Shown here one piece after another: positions 14,107 through 38,049 of a stretch of 64,000 nt of DNA. Made by a program: the position numbers and the translations under genes. This DNA comes from Cliona cf. orientalis (taxonomy: Eukaryota; Porifera; Demospongiae; Clionaida; Clionaidae): contig OZ005692.1 of assembly GCA_963930775.1 (NCBI GenBank), positions 11,141,029-11,205,028 of the forward strand, in the 5' to 3' direction. Within the stretch, counting starts at the first letter, position 1; each line of letters starts with the position of its first letter. The notes under the pieces were generated by a model that searched no databases, was not told the origin of the DNA, and was given only the letters and a program-made list of their open reading frames with translations.

Positions 14107-14726
14107 TTATTTGCGAATGTTGAATGAAGAGTATTCTGTTCTATCAATGGTTTTCTCTCTCTTGAACTCACAGCAGTCGATTCTTGACCTAGGACTACCA
14201 ATACTTGATAACCACTCCTTCCTAAGTACAGAAATACAACATTCAATCCAGGAGCACACTCACTATAATAATAATTATATGGAAATTGGATGTAGACTTG
14301 TTCTCTATACGTATTAGCTAGGAGAAGCCTGCATGCATGTGGAATGAGGCTATAGAAATTAGCGACATGTTGAAAATCATTGGATACATGAGATAGCTTG
14401 ACCATACTTTTGTTACTCACATGGTGTTGACTTTGTCGTGAGGACCCTGGACCACGCCCACCACAGTCCCTCGGCTGGTATTTTGAACCCAACCAACCAA
14501 CTGGTGCCCTGAGGCTGTCTTCTGAGTGTGCTGAATGAAAATTATTCAAAATCTATCACAGCATGCTTTATACAAGTCCATAGCCTATACACACCTTTCT
14601 GAAGAAGACACCTGCATGTAGATACAAATTAAAGGTTTACTGGCATAAATTCATGTATACAAGCTCACCTTGCACTTTTCCAAACACCTCAAAGTGTACA
14701 GATTTGAGAGAAGGGCCAGCTGCCAT
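14107..14726 (-). CDS. Acylphosphatase (copy A)
   Basis: Four exons (14669-14726, 14595-14611, 14421-14530, 14107-14221) give 99 residues, the usual length of the family. Acylphosphatase hydrolyses acyl-phosphate bonds in the cytosol. The N-terminal signature FGKVQGVFFRK contains the phosphate-binding loop and catalytic arginine. The second motif, [18 protein letters not shown], contains the catalytic asparagine, and the C-terminus EYSSFNIRK is typical. The second exon is only 17 bp yet carries the active-site GVFFRK. It is the first gene of the five-gene block that is repeated at 27086-38049, and it appears intact. Confidence 0.92.
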
Positions 14727-15077
14727 CAATCACTCAGAACCATATGCTGTAAGTTACTATGGAGACAGGTTCCACCTTTACCTACTTAATTTTGTTATCT
14801 ATTTAATGCCCATCAACTATCAGTGCAAGCATACCACGTACACATGTAATAATAATTATTGTGTATAATATTACAGTAGTATAATATTATTATTATGTTA
14901 TCATTATCAAACAAAAACATAACTTGGGATGTCATGATCATCTGATCCATCCATTGCATAATAATGCAATAAAATTCAGTATAAACTCTAACTAGCTACA
15001 TGTACATTGTATATAATATCAATCATATCATTTAAAAATTTTCACAAGTTGTATTGGAATGCTGGAAAGTCTGTGGC

Positions 15078-16947
15078 TTAACGTTCCACTGATGTGACAA
15101 TACCCCTTTCGTTTACTCTGAACAAAGCTGGCGCAGAAGAGAGAAGCCATCGCTTAATTTGAGACTCGGACGGGGTTTGCAGATCAGATGCAATGATTTT
15201 TGATATCACCTCAGCAAACGCAGTAACATCATGTGGCACCTTGGATTCATCTTGCACAGTAAATTTAGCAAAGAGTTGATCCTTGCATCTCGAAAGAGCC
15301 ACTAAACTGTGGCACTTGGTGCATTCGGCTGATGTATGGTCCACCTTTGAGTTGCAGGATGGACATGCCTTGTATGTTGAAACGAAAGACACTGCCGCTA
15401 TTTGTCCTCGAATTTCTGTCTGAGTGTTCGAAAGTGTTATCTCCTTTGTGACTTCACCTATGTCATCAATTTCATTAATGGTACTGTCTTCAGTAGTAGT
15501 AATAAATCTTTTTCCTTTATACTGTCTAAATTTTACTTTAAAAAATCTATAACATTTTCCTTTACAAACTTTCCCAATATCTCCCTCCCAAATTTTCAAC
15601 GGCACCGACATGTCACTGTCCGCTAAAGTGCACTCCTGTTTTCGGAACTTGGAACCCGAACTGCTCTGCACATCCTCAGGATCTGTTATTCTTGAAATTT
15701 TGCCACATACTGTCACGATTTGACCTTTTATAGCGTTTTCTAATTCGCTCAATTGTTCCAGTACACGGGATGAAGTATAGATCCTGTCATTCGAAATTTC
15801 AAATTTCTTACTATGATTTGCTACAACCTTTGTTTTAGCTGTATGATGTAATTCAAAATCACCTTCAGTTGGAGGATAGGTCGAATACTTTATGGTGCAG
15901 TTCTTGATGGTACACGGTTTCTTTCTTTGTCTCATTTTCTCTACGTTAGGTCGCAGTGCAGGATTGTAGCAAACAAATTTCAGTGTCTCCTTCCCATCTG
16001 TTATGCAAGCACTGAAGTATTTTCGAGCTGAGTATCGTTTAGTAGAATGTATAGGAGACACGTCCACGATGACACCATGAACAGAAGCATTCTGGTACTC
16101 GTCATCAACATCAGACACGTCGAAGCTATTGGAGTCCACACTAGTACTCTCCTCTAGCCTGCGCTTTTTCCTTGGCGGTTCTGCAGCAAAATAATGAATA
16201 GTACAAGTGATCAGTAAGGAGTCACGTACACCCTCATGATCAGTGCTACTGGTGCTGACAAGTATTCAAAACGGTCATAACATTAGAGTCAGAAAATATC
16301 AAATTATTCATATTAAAAAATTAACTGCTACGATTAAAATAATAATAATTATGATGATCACCCTAGGCCCCAATTTGACATTGAGCCTGGGTATGAGGCT
16401 AATCCCAACGTGGGAAGGGGGGAAGCTACATCACCATACAGGCACTGTCCAGTAATATACCTATACATCTACCGGTATAATTATATTAAATATTATGCAC
16501 CCACAATACATTGACTCAGTATAATGTTGTTGTCCTACCGTTAAATGGAGAATCCTCTTTCGCTAGATCAGTATATTTTCTGTGATATGGCTTCAAATAA
16601 TCATTGACAAGGTCCAAACGATCACAATCTTTCAATAACTTCTCCAATTTAGCGGTATCTTGGGCGTGAAACAATCCTGCCTTTTCTAGCTTCGCTAGCA
16701 TATCTAATCCCGTCATTTTGTCTCCATCAGGACCAAGATACTCTCTCATAAGATAGCTAATAGTGCTTCGGTTACTAGCGTCTAATTGCTTTGCGATTTT
16801 CACAATTACCGATTTGAACTCGCGATCTGCACCTGACGGTGGGTAGCGCCGCTGAGTTAGTACAGATTCGTTAGTTGCAGAGGCGCCAGAAGATCCTGGA
16901 TACTCGGCCGTCGCGATCGAATCATCGTCACTATTTTGAGACGCCAT
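15078..16947 (-). CDS. DED-RPA fusion protein A: death-effector domain plus RPA70-like OB folds
   Basis: Two exons (16539-16947, 15078-16180) joined in phase 1 give 503 residues. Residues about 43-122 form a DED (FKSVIVKIAKQ; LEKLLKDCDRLDLV, with the DED RxDL motif as RLDL). Directly after the splice is the basic stretch PRKKRRL (139-145), a likely nuclear localisation signal. Residues about 165-490 resemble RPA1 DNA-binding domains: OB folds near 168-250, 288-372 and 393-490, the last with a four-cysteine zinc ribbon C409-X2-C412-X10-C423-X2-C426 (YKACPSCNSK). RPA1 OB folds bind single-stranded DNA, and DEDs make homotypic contacts in apoptosis and immune signalling. I infer a nuclear DED adaptor or nucleic-acid sensor. 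No such fusion is known to me. A paralog is at 28044-29984. Confidence 0.8.
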
Positions 16948-17313
16948 CGTCTTCGCTCTCTCAGGGTGCTGAGTCAGGCTAGGGTTTTCCCGCGTTTCTT
17001 ATGAATTCCCACCCCACTCACAATGCGCATGTCAATATGATGTCAACTCCTCAATCACGAAAACAATCAGAAATAAAAAGATTATGCAAAATAATTTAGC
17101 CAATTAATATGCCACAAAATTGGACTCTTTCATAGGTAGAGCAGTTTCAGTCTGCAGAGGTAATGGAGACAACGACAGTGTTTCCGTATTTAGGCTGGAC
17201 CAGCCGCAGCCGTTCAGGCTTGACTTGATGTCGATGTAAGTCTGTTAGTCTGCTTCACCTACCACTAGTACTGTAGTATCATGTGAGCGTTCAATCGATC
17301 ACTATTGTCCTAG

Positions 17314-19053
17314 TTAGTAATGGTAGCTGATACTGACACAGAGTTCAACACCATGGATCAAGTAGAAGGCGAACATGTGTAGCATCACCTCGTCGAGAGT
17401 GAAGTGGGCTTTCTTACAATCACCAGCATCGGAATATTTCAAATTCTCTGTACGTTCGACTGTGCATCCAAGTCTCTGCTCCTTCTGAGGATCGAATGCG
17501 GTGACTTGAATTATGACCTGTCCCCTAGCGTGAGGTGGTGCAGTAACTTCTGCCCACACGGAGATGTGTTCAGATCTGCTTTTGAATGGAAATATCTTCA
17601 GTAAAATTGAAAATTTACAGTCATTGACAGTCTGTGTTGCCTTGAAAGCTTCTGGATATGGAGCACCAATCGACCCCTCTTTAATGATGGAGTATAGGAG
17701 TGCAGAATCGAGTTGAATTCTCAGACATCCGCCCTCACAGGCCACTTCAGAGGTTTCGATCATAGAATCAGAATCTGATGTGCTCCCATCATTCAGTGTG
17801 GCATTCATGTCTGGTGATTCATCTCTTATAGGAGCAACGCTAACATTTGGTAGATTGTAACTGTTATCATACATAGCTGTCATGAACGATGGTTGAGGTC
17901 TGATACCAAATGCTGGATGGGGTATATCACAGGTAGTTGAAGGAATCGCTTCTACATTACAAAGCTCCACCCAAAATTCAATGTAGGGGATCCTCAAATA
18001 GAATATCTTGACATGCGAAAGAAATTCCATGACGACAGCCATTAATTTTCTGGTAGCTGGGTTCCACGTACAATCAATCGTTCCGATAAGCTGTGCTTGA
18101 GTAAATAATTTGATGCTCTTAACTTGAGCGAGTATTTGCTGCAAACTATGATCTGAGACATCAAACTCCATTCCCAAGATGCTGATGTGTGTCGCATTTT
18201 GATGGAGGCCATTTATTGAGATTTTGGTGACTGTAGAATTGATGCAGCAATTTTCCACAGTGACTGGGTCGACAGTGCCTGCTGATGCTTGTAGTCTTGG
18301 CAGAATCTCACTGGTTCTTAGCTGCACCTTGCAAACGTTTGATCCTGCACACAAAACAGATGGACAATAGAGTGGAAGCCGTATATATGCGGCCCCGGGC
18401 ATTCCCCTGGGGAAGTCCCTCCAGCATACTTATGCGCATGCTCTGCCAATGCGCGCCAACTTGTGGACACGTGGCTTATAAGTAGGATCGATCAGAAAGT
18501 CCCCACCTACGTCTACGTAACTCATTGCGCATGCATGGCATCCGTTAATTAATTTTTATACATTCCTGACTACGTAGTGCGACCGCTTAGTGGTTAAGTG
18601 GGCGCCCACAACAAAGGCATAGCAGCCACACAACAAACCGCCAACGTTTTCAAACATACCCAAAACAAAACCAAACTCACCAAAAAGAAACGCTGATTCG
18701 CTCTCCACTAAATCGGTCCTGGGAGGCGCAGAGTGTGCGTCCAAGTTCGGGTGGCTAGCGTCGTACTCGCGGCTAGATTGTAGGAGAATCACGGATCCAA
18801 TGTTACCTCCCGAAGAAGCCCTTCTCAGGTAGGCTGGCGATGATAGACAGCGCTCGCTAACTGGAAATATCTCTCCAGCCAACAGTAGATCGATGTCATT
18901 GTCAGATAGTGGTGATACTAGCGGCGAGGCTGGTTCCAAACCCTGGTGGTCGCGATCGGAGCTCGCCGTAGGGCTGCCAGCGATACCATCAAAAGACAGC
19001 AAATAATGAGCGTTGGCTGGAGAATCTTCCGATGTAGGCTGCTGGAATGCCAT
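17314..19053 (-). CDS. Double MATH/TRAF-like protein A
   Basis: Two exons (18681-19053, 17314-18344), phase 1, 467 residues. The N-terminal ~125 residues are Ser/Pro-rich without a recognised domain. Two C-terminal modules, about residues 130-250 and 360-467, share a pattern with the MATH-like ends of the neighbouring DED genes: FSILLKIFPF, HISVWAEV, then EVMLHMFAFYLIHGVELCVS. There is no DED. Its paralog is 30310-32195, in the same position of the second block. An in-frame ATG at 18402, inside the intron, would give a shorter form lacking the N-terminus. It sits next to paired NF-kB-like sites at 18397-18419. The domain assignment is by pattern only and the function is unknown; a scaffold working with the DED genes is an inference. 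Confidence 0.72.
18397..18419. promoter_or_regulatory. Paired NF-kB-like motifs in intron 1 of double-MATH A
   Basis: GGGCATTCCC (18397-18406, one mismatch to GGGRNWYYCC) and GGGGAAGTCCC (18409-18419, a perfect match on the minus strand) are adjacent. They overlap the alternative ATG at 18402. Paralog B has the same arrangement at 31619-31640. A third near-match, AGAAAGTCCCC, lies near 18495. Confidence 0.45.
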
Positions 19054-19875
19054 GAAAATTTAATATGCCTGTTTGAAAACTTAATACTCGACCTCGCCTA
19101 GAGCGCAATTACATAAGATTTACAAATTCGTAATTTGTGATATTCATCACACGAGCGTGACCGCGCTACCACAAGCAGATGATTATCAGGTGATCGTGAC
19201 TGCGCAATACCTGTATTATGCGTGTACATACTATATGGAGCTCTTTGTAGTAAAGTATATACTAAAAATGGATGCAAAATGCTGAAAAATGGGAATATTT
19301 ATACTGAAAGACAGGAGAACAGCTTGGAGGCGCTGTATATATACGTCACATTATGACAGCTAGGACATGCTATGAGAGAAAAGACTAACAAGGCTACACA
19401 CAGCACAATAATTATGAGGTCACATTTACAGATCAAGTATAGATTAGATAGATAGATAAATTTCTTAATGTCACGCATCAAAAATGCATCGGGCCAGAAT
19501 TTGGCCTATGTGATAAAAATGAAAATAAAAGATACAAGGTAAAAAATAGCACTAAAACATGTAGCTAGGTAGTAATAATAATTAGCAAACAATAATGGAT
19601 AAAAATATTAATATTGTATTAACATCTATAATATTATTATTAGAGTACAGTATATTGTATACACAGGCTTAAATTTTAAAACAGTGACAAATATATTAAT
19701 TCTTCAGAATGGTTACGATGGCCAGAAGTTACAGGGACGAAAGTACGATATAACTTTCCCGTGAGTGGGACTCTGATATCACTGCGATTTCAGCATCACT
19801 TGCCAGACTGCATTCAGTCTAATATTTATTACACAATAGATCCGATCGAAAATATTATAATTGTCCATGTGAGGC

Positions 19876-22317
19876 TTAAGTCTGACCTCCACCTGGGGTT
19901 GCCGTGTGGTCACGGTGCTGATCGCTGGCAGGCTGGTGCTTCTTGACTAGAATATAGCCATCGTCGTCCGCAGCATCTACCTCAAACATCTCACTGCACT
20001 CCAGAAACGCCTGAACGTGCAGGGTAATGATGTCAGATCGGCAATAGAATATTTCACAATGTGAGAGCACTTTATCGATGGTGTTTTTGAACTCGTAGCA
20101 GTTTGGGCTCAGAGGAATGCTGATCGTAGAAGTTTTGGTCAGGGGGGAGCCTTGTTGGTGATACGGAGTAACTTCAACCCTCAACGTACAGTAGCAGAGA
20201 TCGTTCACGAACACAGTGTTTTTTGATTTTGAAGCAAATTTGGCGCTAACTTGGACAGACATGTGCGTATTCTGATCGTAGGAAAGGGGAAAGATTTTGA
20301 ACGAAAGGGTAGGACCTTTTCCGTTTTCACAGGGCACACGAAATTTCAGCTTGTCTGGAAAGCAGCTGTAATCATGGCTACCAATCATCGAGTAGAGCTT
20401 CTTACGGTCTAGATCACACTTGTGGATTGGAGTTTTTGACATCCACTTATCTGAAAGAGAGAAAAACTATTACAGAACCATACCACACAATAGTGACTTA
20501 CTGTAGATCAGGAAATTTTCGTTGTTAAAATTTTTTTTGTTAACAATCTTTCCCGACAAAAATTAAATACACGAAATATTTTGTGTGCGTTAGTTAATAC
20601 AATGATGTATTACATACACTGGTGTATGCAACGAAAATTAGACTACGCGATACGCGAAAATTTATCAAGCGAAATATTTTACCGGCGAAAATATCCCTAT
20701 CTACGGTAGTATAGTTTACTATATTATTATTTGAAATTTGAACAGACAAGCACTGGGTATTCACAGCAGTATGCTATCAAGCCCTAGTCATAATTATATC
20801 ATATCACTGATGAAATTCATAAAGGGATATATATTATCATATGCATTGTATGCACGCCCCCCCCCCCCCCCCAAAGCTCAAGCAATTCTGTATCTCGTGC
20901 CGATACAAAGCACCTGCATGCTGTTATTATATTTATATCAATGATTCTTCCTAATAATATTATACATGTATATCTCAGTATAATAGACACGCTGTCGCGA
21001 CATTATGATCTTCAACCAATATTCACAACCTGATGGGGACGGGTATTATTACATGTACATCTGCTTACCTTGCTTGAAAGGTGACCCCTTGAGCACTGTT
21101 TGCGTCGAAGCATCCGAGAGAGAGCTTATTGATCTTTCAACAGGCACTTGGTTACTTGCAGCTTCTATTGAAGCCCCTCTTGGCTCGATTCCAGCATAGC
21201 TCGCACTACCTGGAGGAATAGTCTGGGGAAGGTGTACATGTAGGTTGGGCAAATTCTCTCTTGCATCCGGCAAAGGCTTCGATTTGACTTCAGCCGGGGG
21301 ATTTTCCAGATCGGGAGCCCCCGGGACGATGTCTTGCAAGCTGCCCTCAGATGCACTTTTCTCTAGTAGTGTACTATCTGCGATCTGAAAGAGAGGTCTA
21401 CTTGATGATAGCGCCGTTTGATGGTGTCTCTGTCGTTGAGGTGGTGGATAGCTGTGAACGATGGCCTCCTGGTTGATCGTGGCTGGGTGACTGTGGCTCA
21501 CTGGTTGGTGAGCTGTACCCGGACTCTGCACTTCTTCTCCTCCGTGAGCTCCAGAGGTTGGAGGGACGCTACTACCCTGCTTGAAGCTTTTCATGGACGA
21601 ATACTTCCCCGCCACCATCAGTGCTGCTATTTCTTCAGATTTATGGTCGTCGTTCAGGCCCAAAGATTCCTCTTCAGGCATGGAGGTTAGCTGTTGTCCG
21701 TGTGTAGCAGTCGGAAAACTCAGAGAGCGAGGAGGACCAACAGGGATTGGTTGAGAGGCCTCCACCACTGGTGCGGGGGCCTGTTGAAGTGATGGATCTA
21801 TATGGGACACAAAAAAACCTGCTAAATTCATATCAGTATGTTGTGACAAATTTCATGCTAATCATCTAACTTTAAAATTTTTATGGCTACACATACTCAG
21901 TTTACTTTAAAAGAAGGAAATTAAGTGATTTGATAAGGACCTCTGTAATCAAATTAGCTAACCAAACTCACGCAATAGAGTGCTTTGAAAATTCTCCACA
22001 GTGCCTAGCAGGTCGTGACGCTGGATACTTCTCAACAGTTCCATGAGCGGAGCGAGGTTGTTGCACGTAAACAAGCCGTTCTCCTCGAGGTTTTCAAGGA
22101 TCTCCAAGGCACTTTTCATTTGGCTGCCGCTAGCCTTGAGTAGGTGCTTGTAGCAAAAGCGCAGGCTTTCCACATCTTCTGGCTTGAGAGCTTGCGCCAG
22201 CTGAACGATCATCGGCTTGAATTTGTCGGGCTGTTGGATCGGCCTGTGGTCAAGATCGAAATCGTACTGACTTTGAAATGGCTGGCTGAAGCCTTCTCCA
22301 GAAGGAAACTCCGCCAT
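19876..22317 (-). CDS. DED-linker-MATH protein C
   Basis: Three exons (21972-22317, 21069-21797, 19876-20450), both introns phase 1, 549 residues. Residues about 33-111 are a DED whose last helices, LMELLRSIQRHDLLGTVENF, closely resemble the FADD/caspase-8 DED pattern including RHDLL. Residues 116-358 are a Ser/Pro/Gln-rich linker. Residues about 375-510 are a divergent TRAF/MATH-like beta domain (LSFKIFPLS, HMSVQVSAKF, VLSHCEIFYCRSDIITLHVQ). DEDs recruit other DED proteins; TRAF/MATH domains bind receptors or ubiquitin-ligase partners. I infer an adaptor between an upstream partner and DED effectors. It is the block A counterpart of gene E (32768-35203) and has an intact ATG in good context. 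Confidence 0.78.
20499..20708. repeat. MITE family 2, copy 1
   Basis: TACTGTAGATC at the left and ATCTACGGTA at the right are inverted ends. The interior is related in reverse orientation to 39439-39644 and 45790-45977. It lies in the intron between the linker and MATH exons of gene C. Confidence 0.7.
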
Positions 22318-22500
22318 GATAGCAACGCCACGTCGTAGCCTAGCTGATCGAGGTCAACTGCATGCATGAAGGGGGCTGGGCACGAGACTAGTTTATACAC
22401 TAGTACTTATGCATGGAATTTACGCCAGACCCCACCCCAATTTGCAAAAATTTAATAACTAATTATTGTGCGCATGCTCAATAAGAAGCAATACGCGCGC

Positions 22501-23668: not shown

Positions 23669-23707
23669 CAAGTTCAACAGTGCAACTTCATCATGACAAG
23701 AATAATA

Positions 23708-26245
23708 TCATTGGGAGGAAGCAACTTGAGAAGGAACAGAAAGGATAGAAATTTCAGTGAATTCAAAATCACTCTCTTTACACTCATAGTGTACAGTATT
23801 GTCAAGTCTACACTCAAGTTCAAACAGTTGCACTTTTGCATGAAAATGAAATTTATCCACACCGGCATTGCCATACAAAAATGCTTGGTGCTCCAACACT
23901 CTATCGAGCTTCATAGGAGTCCTGTGATCACAACTGACCTCACTGTGTGCAATGGCAAACTCTCCAGAAGTATTTCCGATTATTTTATTGTTTTTTGGAT
24001 TTATGACTTCCACCGAGAGACACACAGAACAGTCGCAGTACTCAACGAGCCATCTGTGTCGTGAGCAGTTCCTTGGAATCAATAATTCTCCGTCGATGGC
24101 CACATGACGTGACTCTCCACTCTCACATGGAATCACGCTCAAGAAGACTTTGGGATCTCTTCTCTTCTTACATCCCACAGGTAGAGAGAAATTGACACGA
24201 CTCTTGAGTGGCTTTCCGTGCTGCTCCATTCCCTTCATTAGACATTTCCTCGAGACAGCCCAGGTATAGTTTGTAGTGTGTGTCTTCGGAGGCTGGGTAG
24301 AGGAGGAGCCACTTCTACAGGCACCTGTAAGATGAAACCATGCAGCAGCAATGAATATCATTATTAAGCCAGGTGTTAGCGCTATATCTGGTTACAGTTG
24401 CATCATGTGATCGTCAATGAATATTAATTTCATTATGGATCACGACAATCAGTACAGAGTGAGTCAGCACAATACTTATATAACTAACCTTGTTTCCTGG
24501 ACTGATAAGGGCCGGGGGAGGTCATATGACTGTGCTGTTGTCCTGGACACTGGAAAGCACTGTGTGGGGAGGGGTACAGTGGCGGCTGCATCACATGTAC
24601 AGCGGGCAAACTGCAGCAGCTGCTGTGAGCGGGACATTGTGTGGAACCAGAATGATGGCGCATCGGGAAAGGAGTAGAGCAAGCCAAAAGAGCTGCTTCA
24701 CTATCGTGGGGGTAGCTGTTGCTATGAAGATAAGGGTAGCTTTGTCCTGAAGCAGCTGTACTGCATCGACTGTGAAGGTCACGACGAAGACTGGATGAGT
24801 TATACTCTCCATTCTCTTCAAGTTCGCTGAGAGAAAAAGACGGTTCTTCCACGATATCAGGGTCTTGAAGATTAGCACTCCACCGTCCAGAGGCTGGTGT
24901 GGAGGCTGATTCTCGATCCCTGGGGGTAGCAGATCTGTGTCGTGATCGACAGCGAATGTCATGATGATCGCCCCCTGGTCGTATTGGTGTGTGTGCACCT
25001 GAAGTAGCATTTCCCAAACTATAGACCTCGCTTTGTGTATCTGACCAATTCTGGTCAGCTCTTGCATGAATTTGCGGCTGAAAGCTGGGTACCATGTTAG
25101 GGGGAAGTGAGCTGGTAGGGAGACGCAGCGAGGTGGCAGACGATTCCTCTTCTGGTACAGAGTGCATACCAGCAGCGTACTTTTGAGCTTTTGCCTGTGA
25201 TATCTGCTTGATCCGACTGCGTTGTGAGCTGGGGTCCGTATTGGCTTTGCGTTCGCTCCTAGCTTCTCCTGTTATTGATTCAAACGTTGCAGAACTGCTC
25301 TGTGATACAGTACTGTGCAGACTCGTTGCAGGAAGGCTACGGGCACTTGGTGTACGTCGAATTGATCTTGCAGGGCTGGTAATTCTCTGACCTGAATGAA
25401 TTAGTAAACCCACACTATATACGGGATTTATTTAGGGGATTACAAATTCCGTTTACATATGCAGGCACATTTTGTCTCAATCTCCCAAATGGATGCATAC
25501 CTCATGTTTACTGTTATGACTAACGATAACAATAATAATTATTTCTACATCTTTACTACCCATTATCTGCTAGAGTTATTCTCAGGTTAAAACAAATAGA
25601 TTTTGGATACGTCAACAACGTACAATAACACAAAGTGTAAATAAACACTGGTCAAACGGTTGATACTGCGTGAATTAAATCATCATCATCCACACTATCA
25701 TAATATTATCAATATAGGGCATCCCGCGCGCGCGTGACCTATGGCAATGCGGTTTTGCGGTATTTTCCCGCGATTGATTCACAACTGTAACTCAATTTTT
25801 ATCTCTCGAAAACACAATTATTCTCACCACTTACTAAGTGTTTCCACTTATAAATCCACTTACCTTTGCTCGTAGTGTGCTCTCCGTACTTCTGCTTGTA
25901 CGGTTCGATGTACTTCGACGCTAGATCGCACCTATCGATGTCTTTGAGCAATCGCTCTAGCGGTTCGATATTGTCGTGAGCAAATATTCCCTTTCGCCAT
26001 TGCTTCCAGAGAATCTCGAGCGCCGTTGGTGTCTCTCGCCTAGTATCCATTAAATTTATGTCACACATGAACATCAGCATGGGGATCTCGGTTATGTCCT
26101 CAGCGATATTCTTCAGGACGCGTTTGAAGTCGGGGATCATATCGGAGAGACACTGACAAGGGATGGATCGATGCTCCTCGCTCGGCTCAGATTCTAGCGT
26201 CTCGCTGGGAAATCCCATCTCGAGATGGCTGTCACCGAACTCCAT
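23708..26245 (-). CDS. DED-linker-MATH protein D
   Basis: Three exons (25864-26245, 24489-25391, 23708-24324), phase-1 introns, 633 residues. Residues about 38-117 form a DED (FKRVLKNIAEDI; LERLLKDIDRCDLASKYIEP). Residues 128-428 are a long Ser/Thr/Arg-rich linker. Residues 429-633 hold the most divergent MATH-like domain of the set (VFLSVIPCESGESRHVAI; DRVLEHQAFLYGNAGVDKFH). The DED pairs best with that of gene F (37749-38049), sharing the ALEILWK or ALDILWK helix and RCDL motif, which places D and F as block counterparts. A CRE/ATF-like TTACGTCAT lies at 26378-26386, about 135 bp upstream of the ATG; gene F has one at a similar distance. Confidence 0.76.
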
Positions 26246-26386: not shown

Positions 26387-26452
26387 AAAGGACAAAGGTT
26401 AGGCGCGGGGCCGGGGCTACCTGTACCTGGGTAAGTGCGCGCATGGTTAAGT

Positions 26453-26491
26453 GTGCGACGACCTTTACCAAATAATGCACCTACAATCATT
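26453..26491. repeat. Fragment shared with NDUFAF5 intron 1
   Basis: GTGCGACGACCTTTACCAAA followed by ATGCACCTACAATCAT matches 38577-38616 in the same orientation, differing by an inserted C. It suggests that the duplicated block carried part of the NDUFAF5 5' region. Confidence 0.8.
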
Positions 26492-26508
26492 TTTCCCCAT
26501 TTTTGCAC

Positions 26509-26805
26509 ACAGTGCAAGGGGTAGTCACTTATATACGCTTAGTATTACCATTTATGACCGGGATCAAAATGAAATCAAACGATCAAGGCCGATTTTAGTG
26601 CAGGATCAAGCGATCAGTCACTTTTAGCTAGTGGATATGACGACCATTACCTGAAACGTCATTTGACGTCACCAGGATCAAGCGATCAAGGGTAATTTTT
26701 ACCGAAAATCAAGCGATCAAGGCCGATTTTGTCGATCAAAATATTTTGATCGCGGTCACAAATGGTAACACAAGGCATATATATATGACCACCCCTTGCA
26801 GTGTC
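26509..26805. repeat. TIR element (MITE family 8)
   Basis: The left end CAGTGCAAGGGGTAGTCA and the reverse complement of the right end CACTGCAAGGGGTGGTCA match, and the inversion extends imperfectly for ~55 bp (TACCATTTATGACCG and its counterpart). GATCAAGCGATCAAGG repeats fill the interior. It lies between gene D and acylphosphatase B. Confidence 0.8.
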
Positions 26806-27085
26806 ATCACTGGCCGTCGCGATCGCGTCGACCGCAAAGTATTCAAACAATCAGGTGATGGGATTTAGGAAATATGATCATAAGTATTATACATAACAGC
26901 AATACTGTACTGGGCGCAAGCTGGAGGCTTTCATCCATAATAAAAAAATAATAATAATAGCTATATAAATTCATGATCCACACTGATTGAATTGACGACC
27001 CATACCATACATGAAATCTTAGCGTGCGCAAAATTTAACATTGGAGTCACTAGAATAAAAATTTGGATGAGGAATATTAAATTTA

Positions 27086-27826
27086 TTATTTGCGAATGTT
27101 GAATGAAGAGTATTCTGTTCTGTCAATGGCTTTCTCTCTCTTGAACTCACAGCGGTCGATTCTTGACCTAGGACTACTAATGCTTGATAACCACTCCTTC
27201 CTAAGAATAGAAATATATTACATTCAATCCAGGAGCACACTCACCGGCCATGGAGGGTACTATAATTATGGAAATTGGCTGTAGACTTGTTCTCAGGCCT
27301 AATTTTTCATTTCTAATATTATTGTCTTGTGCCGGGCCTATACTAATTGGCCTATAGCTAGGGAATGAGACTAGAAATTAGCGACAAGCTGAAAATCATT
27401 CCAGCTAGGCAGCTTAGTCACCATACTTTGTTTCACTCGCTCACTCACATGGTGTTGACTTTGTCTTGAGGCCCTTGGACCACGCCCACCACAGTCCCTC
27501 GGCTGGTGTTCTGCACCCAACCAACCAACTGGTGCCCCGGCTGAGGCTGTCTTCTGGGTGTGCTGCAAAAACATAGCCTGGCTGCGGCGAGCCCCTTCAC
27601 AATTATTGATATCTTGGACAGAATCCCTCACATAGTACTAGCTACATGTATAGCTAACTTGAGCATATTTAATACCTTTCTGAAGTCACCGTGACCTGTC
27701 AAAAGGTAAGGAAATTTATTAAAATTGCATCTTGTATGGCCTTCTTCATCAGCTCACCTTGTACTCTTCCAAACACCTCAAAGTGAACAGACTAGACTTG
27801 AAAGAGGAGCTAGGACCAGCTGCCAT
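27086..27826 (-). CDS. Acylphosphatase copy B with altered N-terminal half (possible pseudogene)
   Basis: The four exons correspond one-to-one with copy A: 27758-27826, 27676-27695, 27449-27562, 27086-27200. Relative to A they carry insertions of 6+5, 3 and 4 bp. The +5 (a tandem AGTCT) and +4 changes shift the frame, but the sum is a multiple of three. The frame therefore stays open for 105 residues and returns to acylphosphatase sequence at [17 protein letters not shown] through to the normal C-terminus. The shifted stretch replaces the signature loop (VQGVFFR in A), so the catalytic arginine context is lost. It is either a decaying copy or a repurposed, catalytically dead protein. Confidence 0.75.
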
Positions 27827-28043
27827 ACTTCTATAATTGCAGTTGAGAGCAATAGCTTGACGTCCTATACCGATCCCCACACTCTATTTAATGCTCATCT
27901 GGTTCTCTGTACATATAAATTTGTACGACCTTGACTGGTTTTTTAATACAACAGAAAAGCATCTAATATAAAACCGATTGTAAAAAATTAATAGTATTTC
28001 ATATTATATAATATTATGCATAAATTATATGAGTCAATTTGGT

Positions 28044-29984
28044 CTACGTGTCTGCACGGTTCACTTTAACCACAACTTTTTCTTGATTTATCACAAAGGT
28101 GGCTGGCTCAGCATCAATAAGCATGGATTTAATATCTGACTCTAATAAATTTGCAAGAGCATCTTTATCAATAATCTGAAGCACTCTCTCATTGAATGCA
28201 GTAACGTCATTCGCTTTATTAGATACTGTTTCGTGCACCGTAAATTTAGCATACATACTTGTGTCACACCGGGACAGCTTAACCATGCGTTTGCATATGT
28301 TACACCTTCCCGTTGTCGCGGTTGTGGGGGTTACTTTTCCCTTACACCTTTCTGAAGTACACTCCCTGTAAGCAGTGACCTTGTCTACTGCAGATATATC
28401 TCCGTGTATTTCTCGATTGGTGTTTGGAATTGTCTCAGTACTCAGATCATCTCCAATGTTGTCTATTTCAATAATTTCACTGTTCTTGGTTGTAGATAGG
28501 AAATGATTTCCCTGGAACTCCTTCTTTTGCACATCAACAAAGCAATAGCTAGATCCGGCTTCTACTGTTCCAATTTCTTCTTCCCAAATCTCTAACCTTA
28601 TACACATACTCTGATCAGCCAGCCAGCAATCTTGTTTTGTAAGCTTCTCGCTTGTATTCTTCTCCACTTCAACTGGACATTCAATCCTCACAATTTTACC
28701 CTGGATAGTAACATGTTCATCTCTTCTTGATTCCTTTGATTTCTGTAACTGACACAGCGTTTGAGTATGGGTAAAAAATTTGATCTTGTCAGCTGGGATG
28801 GCGAAATCTTTATCAGAATTTTCAACTACTTTCGTTTCTGGATTGCTAAATAGCTCAAAATCACCTCTCTTATCACGACGTGTCGACTGTTTTACACGGC
28901 AATCTTCTATAGTGACTGTTTTACCTTCATTACATAACTCCTTCATTGTGGACCTCAAGTGAGTGTCGTAAGACTTGAAAAGCAGCGTCTTCTTACCGTC
29001 AGTGATATCGGCTTGAAAATATTTGTTAGTTGGGTTATCTTCAGGCTTATGGACTCGAGAAACTCTTACGATAACGCCATGTACCGATGTTTTCTCGTAT
29101 TCTTTCTTTATGTTGGATACATTTAATCCTCTTGCTAGTAGCCTAGCGCTCTTTCTTGGTCTAGACCCAGTCTCTTCTGTAATAAAGGGGGAAGGGGGAT
29201 AAACAATGGGCTATTCCATTTTAAAAGCCCCACAGTGACGAATAAAATCTAATTTAATAGGTGTGGCAAACTAAATTCATAGACAGTTTAATTTTGCATG
29301 CAGGCAGGGTGGGCGGTCATTATTTCAAACTAGTAAGAGTACGAGAACTTGCGATCGCCAAGGCCATGCCCTTCAATTGCAGCACTTGAGAGGGCGGAGC
29401 TGCTGTATACAATCTGAAACTTTTTTTAGAAAATCTGAAAATTCATGCAGGCAGTGACGATCAACTGCGAATTCAGTTTGCCTGGGCTTAACTGTTAGAT
29501 AGACTAATTAATTTGAAATTGGACAGCGTAATTACCCCCCCCCCCCCCCCCCAAGAACCAATTGCAATAATTTATAGGGGTGTTTTTTGAAAATTGCACA
29601 TAATATTATAGAGCTCTTACCATCCTCGGCTTGTGTCAATTGGCTGGTGTGCTTCATACGGTATGGTTGCACATAATCACTAATGAGGTCATGCCTTCCA
29701 ACACTTTTCAGCAGCTCCTCCAAGGGCTCAACGTTGTAAGCCGAGAATTCTCCTTTCTCCTCTAGTCTCTCCAACATTTGTAGCGTGTTCATTTTATCTC
29801 TGCCTCGACCAAGTTTACGCTTATAAAGAAAGCGTATCTTTTGTTGGTTTTCATTCGCTTCGTCGTAAAGTTCGTCGGAAAGCTGAACTAGTAATTGCCT
29901 GAAATCGTCTGACCCAGGATACTCTTGAGTTTTCGAGTCATCGCGAGAGCTGGACGGCGTAGAAAATAAAGAAGACTCAGCCAT
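28044..29984 (-). CDS. DED-RPA fusion protein B
   Basis: Two exons (29621-29984, 28044-29176), phase 1, 498 residues, parallel to DED-RPA A. The ATG of MAESSLFS was chosen; reading frame upstream of it has no ATG. The DED covers about 26-108 (FRQLLVQLSDEL; LEELLKSVGRHDLISDYVQP). A basic stretch, RPRKSAR, follows the splice. The OB-fold region runs about 145-490 (SVHGVIVRVSRVHKP; VTIQGKIVRIECP; EIHGDISAVDKVTAYREC). The zinc ribbon is C394-X4-C399-X13-C413-X2-C416, the spacing I recall for human RPA70. This supports a true RPA70 DBD-C-type module. The inferred role is as for copy A; the two copies have diverged considerably. Confidence 0.82.
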
Positions 29985-30309
29985 TTTCAACGAGATCGGG
30001 TATAAATTTGGGGGCGCGGACAATCACATGCACAATGCATGATGTGCGCGTGCGCAAAGATTACGTAGACCGGGCCCCGAACAACAGAAAATTGTCACCT
30101 TCCAAATAATATTACAGAGATTAAAGCATCCACTCTAGACAAAAGATTATTACTTTATGGTAAGATTAATTAATAAATAATAATTATTATTACAGTGTCT
30201 ACATGACGTCATGACAGCAATGAGTCAGAAAAGATAATAATTATTATTAAGTTTTGAGCCGTTTGAGTTGTATTGTGACATTGCAGCTGATTTCGGAGAG
30301 GGAGGGGGA

Positions 30310-32195
30310 CTAGAAAGACTTAATGTCAATTTGGATCTGTTCGCAGTAGAATGCGTGCATCTGCAGCATGAGCTCGTCAAAGGAAACCTGGCACCTGGAA
30401 CACCGTTCTGTCTCAATGAACTTCAAGTTCTCGGTACACCTCACAGAATGTCCAAGCTGTCCACAATTGCGACCTTTACAAGGATTGTAGGCTGTAGCCT
30501 CAACAGTGATCTGGTCCAGGGGAAGACACTGGGGAACTGGAGAAGAGATCTCTGCCCAAAGAGATATATGCCTGCCTCCACACTTCAACGGGAGAATCCT
30601 CAGAATGATGGGAACGGTGGTGTTGCTACTGAAGGACCACGTTGTCCTAAAAATACAAGGGTATTGAATCGTCTCTCGGCTGTTGATGATGGAGTAGAGC
30701 TTCTTGCAGTCGAGATTGATGCTGAAGTTGTTTTGCTCTGGATCGCTGGTGTTTGATACTTCGACCATCTCCTCTGCAAGGATCACAATAAACAATGGAT
30801 GACGAAATTTATTTCAGATTCCAACCCCTTTATACTATAATTATTACCCGATTTCCTATAATCACATTACTATGGCACTACTCACCATTTGTGTCCATAT
30901 TTGTAGCTGGTTGCATAGCTCGGCAGTTTTCATCATCTCTGCTGTTATGACTGTGCACCAAATAAAATTTTGCAGCCTCTGTACCTGAGATACAGACCAT
31001 TGTGTCCGATGGCGGCTGATTGTGCAGGATTCGATCGTCGTCAGGCAGAGTTGACATGATCAGTGGTCTCGGACGAATCACTGTTGCGTGAGATATCGCG
31101 GTGGAGTAGGCGTCGGAAGATCTTGATGAAAGTTGGTCCACTTCGTCGTGGTCTAGCAGCTCAACTCGGATATTGATAAACTGATCCTTCCAGTAAAAGA
31201 TTTGCATATGGAGTAAAATGTCTTTTAGGGTGGTGCAAATCTTATTGCTCGTTCGTGATATCATGGATCCAGTGATTTTGTGTTTCTTGGAACGGCGATC
31301 TAGACCAAGAATTTCAACTGTAAGGCTTTTAACACCAGAAAGGTCAATCTTTTGCCCAGATTTGAACTTGATCTCGACAATGCTGATGTGTGCATTTGAT
31401 TTTCCATTGTGGAGACCGGTAAGGGTGACTTCTCTGATTGCTGAGCTGGCCTCATAACTCTGGAATCGAACTGGATTGCAACATGGTGGACTGGTACGAA
31501 TCTGGGAGAGAATTTCGTCTGGTTTGAGGCTGACTAGGTGCACCTCTGATCCTGCAGCAGTAACTGGATGTATTGTCATGTGAGAGGAAGTACAAATATA
31601 AACAGATTACGTCAGCTAGGGAATTCCCCGGGGACTTCCCATCTCGCTACAGGATCTACATTGCATCAGCGGAACTGTACTGATCATCATACCGGAAGCA
31701 CACGCCTTTTAATGTGGCTATGCTTCCAGGCAACCGGTTACCATCGCCCACGAATTCGCGAAACATCATGATCAATGAATTGGGTGTTTGGTGCTAATTA
31801 TCGGTCAATCTTCCGCAAACATGCAAACAAAAACCTCACTTACCGCGGTCATCACCCTGTGCATAGTAGCGTAGATCTGTAGATTGAATCTCGCAGCTAT
31901 GCGCGTCCACGTTGGAGTGCTGGCCGTCAAATTTGGCGATCGACAGTAGACTATGAGTGCTGTTGTGGCGCCGCTCGTAGCAAAGAGAGCCCATAGTCCC
32001 GTGCGAGCAGCATCGCTGCGTACTGCCACACACTGGCACCAAGCGAAGACGATTCGCCGAGCTAGAGCGATGGCGAAGATTGCCGTGGGCAGATCCTGTT
32101 GATGTTTGCAAACGATAGTCGTCTGGAAGAACACGCGTGGCGGGCGTCGGCCGAACGAACACTGGAACGTCGTTTATATCCGAAGTGCAATCCAT
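30310..32195 (-). CDS. Double MATH/TRAF-like protein B
   Basis: Three exons (31844-32195, 30886-31551, 30310-30773), phase-1 introns, 493 residues. The paralog of 17314-19053 with one extra intron separating the second MATH-like module. The first module includes SNAHISIVEIKF and DILLHMQIFYWKDQFINIRV. The second includes VPIILRILPLKCGGRHISLW and DELMLQMHAFYCEQIQIDI. The N-terminus is His/Ser/Arg-rich and faintly resembles copy A (VDAHS, DAHSA). An in-frame alternative ATG at 31579 lies just downstream, in gene direction, of a CRE-like and two NF-kB-like motifs. There is no DED. The function is unknown. Confidence 0.72.
31607..31640. promoter_or_regulatory. CRE-like plus two NF-kB-like sites in intron 1 of double-MATH B
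   Basis: TTACGTCA (31607-31614), GGGAATTCCC (31619-31628, a palindromic kB consensus) and GGGGACTTCCC (31630-31640) lie within 34 bp, about 30-60 bp upstream, on the minus strand, of an in-frame ATG at 31579. The kB pair is also found in paralog A. Confidence 0.5.
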
Positions 32196-32767
32196 TGAAC
32201 AAAATCTCGAATAAATAGTCCTTAATAAAAATTAATAGCCAATATATATACTTGAACTCGTGGCCGTGCTTCTGGATTTAGCTAGACAACTGAAAATTAA
32301 CTTTATTTTCAATTGCTTTGCGGTCACGCTCTCGCATATTATGCAATTATACGTACGTACGTCACTGTACGCGCAGTGTGTCATGTCATGCATGCATGCA
32401 TGATATGACCTGCCATGCATGCCATCGCAACAGCGAGCTATTTATAGCCTATGGCCAAAGCCTTATATGGCACACAAACAATAATACAATCAGGTGATAA
32501 TATATGACATAATATTTTTAATATAATAACAACTTCGCCGTCATAACAATATTCCCTATAGGTACATAACATCACACTGAAATGATTCTGTGATCACAAA
32601 AGATTAGAATGGAGCAAAATACTGAAAAATAATAATTATTAATCTTTTCTCTCAGAGCTGGTCATCTTCACGCAATACTGTAGCCTCCGTGCATCGGAGG
32701 GAACTATCATTTGGGTTTAGGTTTGGGAATGCAACGATAGCTAATCGTCAATCGTCAACAAGTTTCG

Positions 32768-35203
32768 TTAAGTCAGTGGATCTTGTGGCTCATTTGTTGT
32801 TACGAGAAGATAGTCCTTGCAATCGGGATCATCAGACTGGACCGCCACAATCTTATCCTGGCAGCGAAGCGTAGCGCCCACTTGCATCTGAATCTTGTTC
32901 GTCTTACTGTAGAGTATATCATTATGTGAGAGAGCTTGAGTGATCTTAACACAAGCTTCACACGAGGTTGGATTTAGCTCAGCTTTGCCTTCTTTCGAGG
33001 AGAGTCTATCGCGGGTCTTGACGTTGAAGAAGGTGGTCTTGACTTCGACGACACAGTTACAATTCTCCGCCATCTCCTTGCATTTACGACTAGAGAGGGG
33101 GTACGAAACATGTGCCAGCACCGTCGCGTGGCGCGTCTCTATATCAGCGTCTCGACCGTAGGGGAAAATCTCCAGAGACATGTGGACAACCCCTTTCCTT
33201 GATTTAGAGACGGGGATTGTGGTGTTGAAACGCTTGTGGTAGTGAGATGTCTTCTGCTTAGAGATCATGATTGCCATTTTTTCACGATTCAACAGAAACA
33301 GTTCCGGCTTGGAATGCCATACACGCCCCATGGGCATAGTTGAGCCTATATTTAAATAATTCAATTGTCATTATAAAATCAATATTCATGAAGGCATACA
33401 ATTCATGACATTCCCAGACGGTGATATAATATACACACGCATGCACACCCACCCGCTCACCCACACAGAGATATGCCATAGATTACCAAGTTTATTATGG
33501 CTATACTATGAGGTCACGACTGTGATACAGCTGAGCCAACATCCCCAGATTATGTTGAACCAAGTGACCTTTCAAAATTTATAATTATATAATACTCCTC
33601 AGGCCACCTATGCTAGTAGAACTAATGATATCACCCTAGCTTACATTCAATCGAAGCAGTGGCATGATGCAACACCGCTGCTCCATTGGTTGCGGCAGGA
33701 GTGACAGTAGCTGAAGGAGTTGGAGCAGTAGGATGACGGGTAATGGTGGCATTAACCTCTCTGGTCGTCTCAGGCACCGTGGGCAAGCCGGCTGTGTTGG
33801 GTACAGCTTTAGGTGGGTGTGATTTCCCCTCACCAGCCACGAAACAAGCCTCACCGTTGCCGTGGTCCGTAGCTTCAACTGACGTCTTATCAGTGGTAAT
33901 CGGAAGAGGTGTGTTAGAACGAGTCCGCTCGTTAGCCTGTTGTAAAGAAGCTGTCAGGGCTTTTGTCAAGCTGTCGTTTAGATTCCGACAAGCTGGCTTT
34001 GATCTCACCTCCGCGGGGGTACTGGAATGAGACGGAGTAGTGTTATCCATGGGAAAGTTCAGTTGAGAATCACAGTCGTGAGGAAGGGTGGATGATAAAC
34101 CTCCAACTTCGAATGAAACTGCTTGATTCGACACTTGGACTGAAGAACTACCAGCCCCACCATTTATTTGCTTCAACGGTGTCAGCTCTTGATCAGCTTG
34201 CGTCAAGCTAGCTCGTCGCAAAGGGTACCGCGGAGAGTTGTTGAGCTCGGCGATACATTGCCTTCCAACTCTACCAAGGGGATCCTCGCGATGGCAAGAT
34301 TTTGGTGGATGTGGGCTCGCTCCTCCAATTCCACTCATCTTTTGATCTAGGGTGGAGAGAATTTCAGACGAAAAATTACCAGACACGAGAAGTGATTTTT
34401 CTGAGACGTGCGTGCCATGTGCTCTGTGGATTAGATTCTCTTCTTCGATTGAACATAATTCTCGTGACGGCATCGTCGTCATTGACGTCACAGCCGCTGT
34501 TACAGGAAAGCTTGTGGATCTGTTGAGAGGAGCACTCTGAGGACGGCTGGGGAAACTGGACGTATTAGCCGGGGAGGAGACGGAGTGCTGCAAGGTAACT
34601 GTGGATGTGTACAATTCAATTAATGTAACCACATACAATATCAATATGGCCAGGCTTTTTATTGCCACTTGATCCTATATGGGGAGTAATCTCATCTATT
34701 TAAAAATTTTACTGGCAATGATAGGGATAACCATACAATTAAAAATAAAATATTTCTGAATCAGCCATTAATTATTGTTTATAAACAGTTCTGGACATAA
34801 TTTATCATCACAACTAACCTGCTTGGTTCAGCTGATGGCCGTACTTTTGGCGGAAGGGGTCCAAGTGGGACTCGACAAGGTCACAGCGTTCGATGTCCCT
34901 CAGCAAGCTTTCCAGAGGGTCTAATTTTCGCGCAGAAAAGAGACCTTTCTCCTCCAACTTTCGCAACAATATCAACGCCTTTGTGTCTTCTCCGACAGTG
35001 CCGAGTTTGTCTTTGTGCAGGTAGCGGATCTTATCTTTCAACTTTTCATCTTCTAGCGCGTCACCGAGCTGTAGAATCAGTCGCTTGTACTCGTGCAGGG
35101 GGTCGCCATTTTGGTAGAGTTTAGCGTGCGTCTCGGCGCCCAAGCTGCATGGATACGGCTGAGAGAAACCAGAAGGGGGTGGATCGCTATCGGTGGTGTC
35201 CAT
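32768..35203 (-). CDS. DED-linker-MATH protein E
   Basis: Three exons (34819-35203, 33645-34598, 32768-33345), phase-1 introns, 638 residues. The start is the ATG of MDTTDSDPPP; the reading frame extends upstream but without an ATG. The N-terminal SGFSQPY motif is shared with gene C (EGFSQPF). The DED covers about 38-117 (YKRLILQLGDAL; LESLLRDIERCDLVESHLDP). Residues 129-446 are a Ser/Pro/Thr-rich linker. The MATH-like domain is about 465-620 (HMSLEIFPYGRDADIETRHA; ALSHNDILYSKTNKIQMQV). The MATH exon is much closer to that of adjacent gene F than the DEDs are, suggesting gene conversion. Confidence 0.78.
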
Positions 35204-35454
35204 TGTGAACAAAGAAGCCGGGTTGACGGTGATTACCACACCCTAATAATAGCAATAGGATCCTCCCCATCTATTTTTGCGCATGCGCAAATAAATTATA
35301 CTCACGCGCGCATGAATAGAATTTGCACACCAGATCGAGGAATACGCCGGATCGTCTGCATTAAAATTATAGTAAGCTTAGTATCACACTTTCATACAGT
35401 ACAATAAATAATTGTCCCATAATATTATTTAATATGTTCGTGTACTTTTATTGT

Positions 35455-38049
35455 TTATTGTTCATTTGGAGTGTACGTAAGAAAAACATAGTCAGAGCAG
35501 TCTTGGTCATCACTTATCGCTGCCACAACTTTGTCTTGGCAGTGAAATTCCGCCTCCACCAACATTTGAATATTTGCAGCACTGTAGAGTATGTCACTGT
35601 GTGAGAGAGCTTGATTAATCTGGATGCAAGCTTCACAAGATGTCGGATTTAGCTCAGCTTCTCCCTCTCGCGAGGATAATCTTTCTTTAGTCATCGAATT
35701 CACAAAACTAGTTTTCACCTTGACAGTGCAAACACAGTTGTCTGCTATCTCTTGGCAAGGCAGTCGGTACTGGGACACCCTCACCAGTACAGTAGCGTGG
35801 CGGGACTGTATGTCAGCATCTATGCCATAGGGGAAAACCTCGAAAGTCAACTTTATGCCGCCTCTCCTCTGCGCGGACACGGGTATGATGGTGGTCAAAT
35901 CCTGGCCATACTGATGATAGTGGCATGTCTTATGGACAGCAATCATTTTGGCCATCTTTTTACGATCAAGTAGAAAATTTCCCCTTGAATTCCACTTACG
36001 CCGATCAGTGTCTGCAGCAGCTATATATAATAGATAAGTAGCATAATAATTATTGATACATAATGAGGGGGGCTAGTCAAATCATGGGACTATCCTAAAC
36101 AATATTATTAATGAACTTACAATGTGACTGATGAAACGAGAGCATCTCTTGATCGTCCGTGCTTCCACTCCACTGCTCCATATCAGATGATGATGTATAA
36201 GCTGAGAGAGACGCCATAGAACTGGCTGTAGACCCGATGTTCATCCGTCCAAACCTCTCCTGTAGTTCTGCATCCAAGGAAATGTTTGATGGTTGACTAT
36301 TTCTCTGAGCTCTAGAACCGATGGGAGCGCTCATGCGTGTATCGGACCTGGCACTGTAGGACGACCAACGACTGCACTGAAGAGTAGAAGGTGTTTGACT
36401 TCGGCTGAAACTGCTGTTGTTGATTGACTCCGCCCTCGATTGTCGCTCTAGGTGTTGTATTTGAGCCTGCACGGGTGTAGTAGCTACACTGCATTGTGAG
36501 CCTGATGCTTGAAATCGAGGGAAGAATGGAGTTTGTATTGCAGATGACAACGACGAATTCGAAGGTTCTTCTTCAGCGACTGTATCGCAGTATGGCTGCT
36601 GTGGATACTGCTGATAGTAACGATCTTGAGTGCACTGAACTGGGTCAGTTTGTGAGCGAGGTTTAGTTGCAGCAATGTTTAAGAGAGAGGAGTGAGCTGG
36701 AGGAAGGCTGATGGGACGTTGCTTAACTGCATAATAATTATTAAGGGTATGATTCAATCACAGCAATTGAAAATGGAAGGATCAAAAATAGCTACCTTAG
36801 GATTACGATTATTTGCAGGTACAAATTTTAGTGTATTTCAGAAATTGTGCATTTAGCGGGTACTCATTTTAGCGATTTTTTTATTAACATTCTATTTATT
36901 CAAAAATGTTGAAAATTTTAGTACTCGTGGGTACAATTTTTAGCGAAAATTAGGCAAATCATTAATTTCGCTAATTTAGTACTTGCAAACTAAAGTGTCT
37001 TTAAGGTAAGTAACTGTAATAGGTCGACTTAATTCCTAAGATCGGAACACCTTGCTTCTGCCATTAGGGTACATCGGCTACAACTTGGACTTTAAATTAC
37101 TTAGCGGTGTTTACCATGAACAATAGTTATGAGTCTCCTCGGATAATATCTCTACGATAATGCATGTTTTGTTGTTCACACTTGGGCTGTCTTATTCCCC
37201 CAGGTCCATACCCCTGCCTGTCCCCTGTTAAAAACAATGACTATAATAAACATCAACCATGCAACTCTAGCAACAAAACCGGTGCGATAGGCCTACGTAG
37301 GAATCGCTACTCAATCTTAACCCGTGATTATATACATCCGGCTCATGTCACTAAGACTCCCACACATCAGTGAGGCAGCTATAGCTAGCTATAATATTAT
37401 AGCTAGTAGATAATTGAGAGTTTATTAAACAAGTGTTATCGAAAGGAAATGCCTGGTCAGGGTGAATATGATGTTTAGCTATCATTGTTTCCCAAAATTA
37501 CCAAAGAAACCCATATACAATTATCAGTGATTTAGCTAGTTTACTATAACAGATTAACGGCCGTAGAAATGCACCAATTATCTCTTCGGAAGCCTAATAT
37601 AATATTATTAATTATGCTTGGATAGTATTAATTTTAATTGTTACCAGACTTTTTCCTAGAATTATTCAGGTTGTATTCTAGAAAAAAAGTTTGGTAATGA
37701 CTAACCGTATAACAAGAAGTACGCTAGTAATAATAATATTATACTCACCTGCATACTTATGCTTGTATGGTTCAATGTGCTTCGTCACTAGGTCACATCT
37801 GTCGATACCCCTCAGTAGACTCTCCAGTGGGCCAACGTTACTGTGAGCGAATTTGCCCTGTTTTTCGAGCTTCCACAGAATATCCAGTGCAGTCATTTTG
37901 TCCCTATCACTGCCTGTGCTGTTCATGCCACACATGTACATCAGCTTGGAGAGATTGTTAATGTCATCAGCAATGTTCTTGACCATCAGTTTGAAGTCTT
38001 CAAACATCAAAGTCTTGTTGGAGTTACACTGAATGCGGGCCTCCGCCAT
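35455..38049 (-). CDS. DED-linker-MATH protein F
   Basis: Three exons (37749-38049, 36121-36726, 35455-36020), phase-1 introns, 490 residues. The DED covers about 17-96 (FKLMVKNIADDI; LESLLRGIDRCDLVTKHIEP). The linker (101-302) is Ser/Gln-rich. The MATH-like domain (~330-475) includes LTFEVFPYGIDADIQSRHA and ALSHSDILYSAANIQMLVEA. It is the shortest DED-MATH gene. It is divergently arranged with NDUFAF5, with ~200 bp between start codons. The DED matches gene D, while the MATH domain matches gene E. Confidence 0.78.
36793..37007. repeat. MITE family 3, copy 2
   Basis: Begins TACCTTAGGATTACGATTA and ends CTTTAAGGTA. It is related to 6999-7226 and lies in intron 1 of gene F. Confidence 0.7.

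Follow-up and report, generated by a model that had tools for sequence, protein, structure and literature searches.

A cluster of genes in the sponge Cliona cf. orientalis joins death effector domains to exchangeable MATH-like or RPA-like tails

In the genome of Cliona cf. orientalis, a stretch of 64,000 nucleotides (the window; positions 11141029-11205028 of contig C4, part of a 216.8 Mb genome) contains six genes on the minus strand, located between 15.1 and 38.05 kb of the window, each of which opens with an exon encoding a death effector domain (DED). These genes, termed A to F, end in either of two modules, one resembling replication protein A (RPA) in A and D and one of MATH-like character in B, C, E and F, and two double-MATH genes, both devoid of a DED match, are interspersed among them, which bears out the organization that had originally been predicted. 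As best explanation, to which we assign a probability of about 0.5, we propose a lineage-specific array of death-fold adaptors with exchangeable phase-1 exons, where the tail would set the trigger and the DED-RPA proteins would sense single-stranded DNA. The underlying domains, their order and phase, the exchange of modules, the relationship between the RPA part and transposon-linked copies and the duplication of a block were computed directly. The genes of the cluster are listed below from left to right.

15078..16180, minus strand: terminal exon of gene A, an RPA70-like module of about 366 codons with OB folds and a zinc ribbon; REPA_OB_2 2.5e-4, below cut-off; 42% identity to D; the profile of eight sequences finds human RPA70 at 4.6e-13.
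16539..16947, minus strand: first exon of gene A with methionine start, DED (16591-16818) and phase-1 donor; PF01335 38.3 bits; predicted joint 16539/16180.
17314..about 19059, minus strand: double-MATH gene 1 with two exons (about 19053-18681 and 18344-17314); two stretches match the window MATH profile, in which the gene itself is included; joint of phase 1.
19876..22317, minus strand: gene B with DED exon (DED 21985-22221), linker exon (about 21797-21069) and MATH exon (20450-19876); PF01335 58.5 bits; MATH-like by alignment; first joint weak (score 1.7).
23708..26245, minus strand: gene C with DED exon (DED 25904-26128), linker exon (25391-24489) and MATH exon (24324-23708); PF01335 25.9 bits, below cut-off; MATH-like by alignment; predicted joints.
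28044..29176, minus strand: terminal exon of gene D, an RPA70-like module; Rep_fac-A_C 7.1e-5 and REPA_OB_2 0.009, both below cut-off; cysteine spacing of human RPA70.
29621..29984, minus strand: first exon of gene D with methionine start, DED (29676-29903) and phase-1 donor; PF01335 43.7 bits; predicted joint 29621/29176.
30310..32231, minus strand: double-MATH gene 2, exons ending at 31844, 31551-30886 and 30773-30310; matches the window MATH profile, in which the gene itself is included; joints of phase 1.
32768..35203, minus strand: gene E with DED exon (DED 34865-35089), linker exon of uncertain sites and MATH exon (33345-32768); PF01335 34.0 bits, slightly under the cut-off; AlphaFold2 and Foldseek indicate a MATH fold.
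35455..38049, minus strand: gene F with DED exon (DED 37777-37995), linker exon (about 36696-36121) and MATH exon (about 36011-35455); PF01335 36.6 bits; C-like DED and E-like MATH module by identities and trees.

The constant part of the six genes is the DED. In a search with the hidden Markov model PF01335, whose curated cut-off is 35.9 bits, all six first exons are matched, those of A, B, D and F above and those of C and E below this value. A profile constructed from the six domains detects c-FLIP (6.6e-16), caspase-8 (3.6e-11) and FADD (4.4e-5) among solved structures, and close to the end of the domain the arginine, aspartate and leucine of an R-x-D-L motif are invariant in all six sequences. 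This motif, located near the last helix of DEDs, matters for their assembly. The assignment of the domain is real. The heads thus belong to the same family as those of FADD, caspase-8 and c-FLIP, whereas the genes in the window carry, where those have a death or caspase domain, a tail of MATH or RPA type. Two loci on contig C9 contain a caspase domain about 1.1 kb downstream of a DED, and a DED-caspase partner is therefore available in the same genome.

The connection between heads and tails was analyzed with a splice scorer, whose weights follow a general animal consensus rather than being fitted to this genome. At all 13 joints of the eight genes in the window, and also at three to its right, the GT..AG pair with the highest score is of phase 1, although B, E and F offer several candidate sites of like scores, which makes their exact positions uncertain. 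Exons of this phase are exchangeable without a break of the reading frame, and such an exchange is apparent from the sequence of gene F, whose DED is closer to that of C (54.8% identity) than to that of E (36.1%), whereas its MATH module is closer to that of E (60.1%) than to that of C (20.1%). Forcing E and F together is rejected in the DED tree (p = 0.0245, approximately unbiased (AU) test), and so is a grouping of C with F in the MATH tree (AU p = 0.0147), these p values being somewhat generous as the tests were chosen once the identities were known; the branches C+F (89/61) and E+F (92/97) are both non-starred in the module trees. By sequence, modules have been exchanged between genes, with F combining a C-like DED and an E-like MATH module, and the swappable architecture that had been proposed for the cluster is in line with domains, order and phase. 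Among the linkers, only those of B and E share a stretch, which is weak (2.7e-4).

For the RPA tails, the start of the exon is informative. All five full-length relatives in the same genome (a sixth, L038, is truncated at its 5' end and was left out of the count) contain a methionine upstream of the first OB fold, whereas the open frame of A and of D contains none and displays a predicted splice acceptor upstream of the fold. Together with the uniform phase of the joints, this difference argues for a fusion of DED and RPA. It also bears on the possibility that the gene models are artefacts and that DED exons and C-terminal exons belong to separate, alternating genes. That the models are predictions and that some joints are weak, as the first joint of B, would suit this possibility, which we nevertheless regard as highly improbable, since the order of a DED followed by a C-terminal exon recurs in six of six cases in the window and again on contigs C16, C14 and C19, with phase 1 at all 13 joints of the window genes and RPA exons that lack a methionine upstream of the OB fold. 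We also considered a single gene of the order MATH-MATH-DED-RPA, which was rejected as a stop codon ends the last exon of both double-MATH genes and as a methionine precedes the DED in all six DED exons.

Each RPA tail is encoded by one exon of some 370 codons. When A and D are combined with six relatives from this genome, the resulting profile matches human RPA70 (8rk2) over DBD-A, DBD-B and the zinc ribbon of DBD-C in this order, and the four cysteines of the ribbon are invariant across the eight aligned rows. At the positions equivalent to the stacking aromatics of human RPA70, which we take to be F238, F269, W361 and F386, inspection by eye shows an aromatic residue retained at three of four in A and D.

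Relatives of these tails are found in proximity of Helitrons. The module of D is detected at 53 places in the genome (A and D included) and that of A at 61, and 32 of the 53 are located within 15 kb of a Helitron_like_N match, compared to an expected number of 2.7 and a maximum of 9 in 1000 positional shifts along the contigs. In this comparison the Helitron_like_N matches are the 150 that were scored of 180 candidates, and the numbers for other families are likewise lower bounds. A DED match within 15 kb is a property of only A and D among the 53 places, and the nearest of the Helitron_like_N matches listed is 200 kb from A and 187 kb from D, so that none of the matches listed represents a Rep/helicase gene beside either of them. 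In a phylogenetic tree, the RPA family is set apart from cellular RPA70 (100/100) and A pairs with D (91/96). The RPA part of the DED-RPA genes is akin to the transposon-linked copies. Two of these copies, C16:2883129 and C4:11349886, have equal scores and are equally distant from equal-scoring Helitron matches in frames of 2191 residues, and probably are recent copies of one Helitron. Near five of six RPA loci viewed (L034, L036, L037, L038 and L039), we observed on the opposite strand a coiled-coil-like frame, alike by eye; in the one that was scanned, Pfam matches are below cut-off. A search of viral contigs with the RPA module of gene D gave no relative.

In light of this kinship, and of the many Helitron matches in the genome, the RPA proteins might restrain Helitrons, with DED-RPA competing with the RPA of Helitrons, or sensing it, on intermediates of transposition, and with a DED that mainly serves to cluster the protein. 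We consider this quite unlikely. A grouping of A and D with cellular RPA70 is not rejected (AU p = 0.242), so that the host may have captured a Helitron protein or the transfer may have run in the reverse direction.

Both DED-RPA genes are embedded in the same surroundings, with a double-MATH gene preceding and an acylphosphatase-like gene following each of them.

13998..14726, minus strand: acylphosphatase-like gene, a neighbour separate from gene A; PF00708 1.1e-7 for exon 14530-14420.
26981..27826, minus strand: second acylphosphatase-like copy, neighbour of gene D, with disturbed frame; 79.7% DNA identity to the copy beside A.

The stated identity refers to 13998-14533 and 26981-27565, and a genome search with 14100-14560 returned those two places only. 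In the two copies, the exons and a stretch past the stop codon are near-identical whereas the introns barely align, and length changes on the side of D disturb the frame. Judged from these sequences, double-MATH gene, DED-RPA gene and acylphosphatase gene were probably duplicated as a block, in which case the two DED-RPA genes would go back to one fusion event and not to two. The cluster had initially been delimited to 14107..38049, of which the core holds; its left end extends too far, as 14107-14726 is part of the separate acylphosphatase gene. A shared block of 595 columns had suggested a conserved RNA downstream of the two DED-RPA genes, which was dismissed, since no Rfam match was found at E up to 1, the folding z-score is 0.11 and the block corresponds to the acylphosphatase gene.

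The second type of tail, a beta-rich exon, was characterized by structure prediction. An AlphaFold2 model of the E module, calculated from eight sequences in the window (pLDDT 78.4, pTM 0.74), retrieves in Foldseek 23 first rows that are all MATH domains of either SPOP or USP7 (best E 2e-6), with TM-scores by target of up to 0.67 and with TRAF6 and TRAF4 lower in the list. The remaining MATH-like modules of the window align with that of E, and the assignment is based on this family alignment and on the predicted fold of the one module. The model identifies the E module as a MATH beta-sandwich, as originally predicted for these tails. The family is far from the Pfam models. A UPA domain as tail of gene B, considered because of a weak UPA-FIIND match (0.011), was dropped in view of the same Foldseek result. 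The MATH exons of E and F differ mostly by silent changes (dN 0.30, dS 2.68 for nonsynonymous and synonymous substitutions), which points to constraint. Outside of the window, the window MATH profile matches the module on C16 (2.8e-5), the sole match among the other loci compared at E up to 1; at the same threshold it leaves the C14 module and those to the right of the window unmatched, and its alignment by hhalign to the single C14 sequence is weak (probability 3). The modules on C14, C16 and C19 match one another, with 55% and 43% identity to that of C14. Ordinary MATH_2 domains are encoded at no fewer than 150 places in the genome. Three of these places, with strong MATH_2 matches, are located on the strand of the array 5 to 16 kb to the left of the window (C4:11124466-11136032), and ordinary MATH genes thus flank the DED-MATH array.

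On this basis, we propose a mechanism in which the N-terminal DED would be the constant, self-assembling part that recruits the DED-caspases of the same genome, whereas the C-terminal exon would decide what starts the assembly. With a MATH tail, DEDs would be gathered through binding of the fold to peptide motifs in partner proteins. With an RPA tail, single-stranded DNA would be bound by an RPA70-type module such as the Helitrons of this genome carry, and several molecules on one DNA single strand could line up their DEDs and so nucleate a caspase-activating assembly. We infer splicing, binding of single-stranded DNA, DED assembly, cell death and an immune role from the described features; a role in innate immunity or cell death is plausible.

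Several observations weigh against this proposal. All matches of single RPA sequences to Pfam models fall below the curated cut-off, and gene D alone finds no RPA among solved structures at E 0.1, the RPA assignment, as previously made, being supported by the profile. An AlphaFold2 model based on the RPA sequences of A and D is poor (pLDDT 40.2) and was not used, the position of F269 is by eye without an aromatic residue in either protein, and dS between A and D is saturated. For the MATH tails, TM-scores are modest when expressed by query (at most 0.50), and the curated Pfam MATH/TRAF models miss the modules of the window altogether, with zero matches at E up to 1. Finally, the RPA exon of A opens with a basic stretch, PPRKKRRL, which would be as compatible with a function in the nucleus as with a cytosolic sensor.

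Latter feature leads to what we regard as the main rival, namely that DED-RPA is a nuclear protein resembling DEDD and DEDD2, which tunes transcription, repair or replication stress and does not act as death sensor of foreign DNA. The ordinary work of RPA is nuclear, and Kaur et al., 2021 (PMC8195603) describe the DED protein DEDD2 as nucleolar. Conversely, the equivalent stretch in D is less basic than that of A, and the growth of the array with its exchange of modules would more closely resemble the behavior of immune genes. In balance, we judge a nuclear function to be unlikely, albeit a serious contender.

The array continues past 38 kb, where it had been thought to end. Seven additional DED matches are located to the right of the window (C4:11220526-11241741), up to 36.7 kb past its edge, two of them belonging to genes whose tail is MATH-like (MATH_2 0.0023 and 0.15, neither reaching the cut-off). 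This continuation, as well as the RPA-Helitron tie and the acylphosphatase neighbours, had escaped the original prediction. Genes of the type DED-linker-MATH-like are also found on C16, C14 and C19. At one locus on the right (C4:11235406-11241741, L015), five DED matches, four of them in similar tandem exons, surround an exon with weak matches to Roc/Ras GTPases (below cut-off) and a death-domain exon above cut-off, which likely constitute one or several DED-GTPase-death-domain genes. At five loci on C12 and C1 (L002, L003, L004, L007 and L008), DED-opening frames encompass about 585-598 residues as cut by the locus ends, four of them with a second DED match. Within the window, a single-exon gene for a Fic domain (40899-42062, plus strand; PF02661, 54.9 bits) adjoins the DED array. 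Two exons further to the right (49709-50329 and 58717-59412, minus strand) are 89.8% identical over 684 DNA columns and MATH-like by eye, the former without Pfam match, and at 52354-53711 (minus strand) an fn3 exon (61 bits) is located beside an exon whose match to TRADD-like_N is very weak (0.15, below cut-off), with an 85% identical copy 35 kb rightward.

A death-fold head with a variable tail has precedents. In Amphimedon, 357 proteins are described, most of which contain one to three Death-like domains followed by TRADD-N and variable C-termini including MATH (Kaur et al., 2021, PMC8195603). These proteins, assigned to the NCOA6 clade, share with the Cliona genes the death-fold head, the variable and possibly MATH-containing tail and the lineage-specific expansion. 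They differ in their TRADD-N, for which the linkers of B, C, E and F give no match at E up to 1, a strongly diverged version of which could escape detection. The terms 'RPA' and 'ssDNA' are absent from the text of the same paper, and no DED-RPA protein is named in the literature searched, which comprised sources available without subscription. The claim that neither a DED-MATH nor a DED-RPA family had been described consequently stands for the latter, whereas for the former the theme of a constant death-fold head with variable tail, MATH included, is already published. What is new here are the tie between RPA and Helitrons together with the missing methionine of the RPA exons in A and D, the exchange of modules in gene F and the probable block duplication. 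With respect to the tails, Helitrons of plants, zebrafish and a sea anemone are known to contain RPA genes, which encode RPA70-like single-strand-binding proteins close to the Helitron Rep genes (PMC4683698). In A and D, RPA is in contrast a tail exon behind a DED, remote from any listed Helitron match. The resemblance of the MATH-like modules to SPOP, USP7 and TRAFs is one of predicted fold, in a family that is beyond the reach of Pfam models and joined to a DED.

The closest parallel in layout is AIM2, where a pyrin domain precedes two HIN OB folds and is lined up on DNA to seed an assembly in the way proposed here for DED-RPA. AIM2 and IFI16 belong to the clustered PYHIN genes, whose OB folds bind DNA and which are reported only from marsupials and placental mammals (PMC3458909). 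The DED-RPA proteins would realize the layout of a death fold followed by tandem OB folds with other parts, a DED and RPA-type OB folds, and are thus not members of this family; an assembly triggered by DNA would here be deduced by analogy. HIN domains consist of two OB folds without a zinc ribbon. It is tentatively conceivable, though on the doubtful side, that an early-branching animal has spliced a DED onto the single-strand-binding protein of a rolling-circle transposon, generating a death-signalling sensor of single-stranded DNA convergent with mammalian AIM2, which was kept in an exon-shuffling array that pairs the DED with DNA- or protein-sensing tails.

If DED-RPA functions as proposed, animals would have evolved death-fold DNA sensing via OB folds on at least two occasions, in one of them with a DNA-binding part of the type found in jumping genes, and the cluster would provide a concrete case where an accessory protein of transposon type, and not a transposase, was recruited into a host death pathway. 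It would also constitute a natural modular set that couples one DED to different triggers, and it makes the reading of single-stranded DNA by an animal without PYHIN genes a directly testable question.

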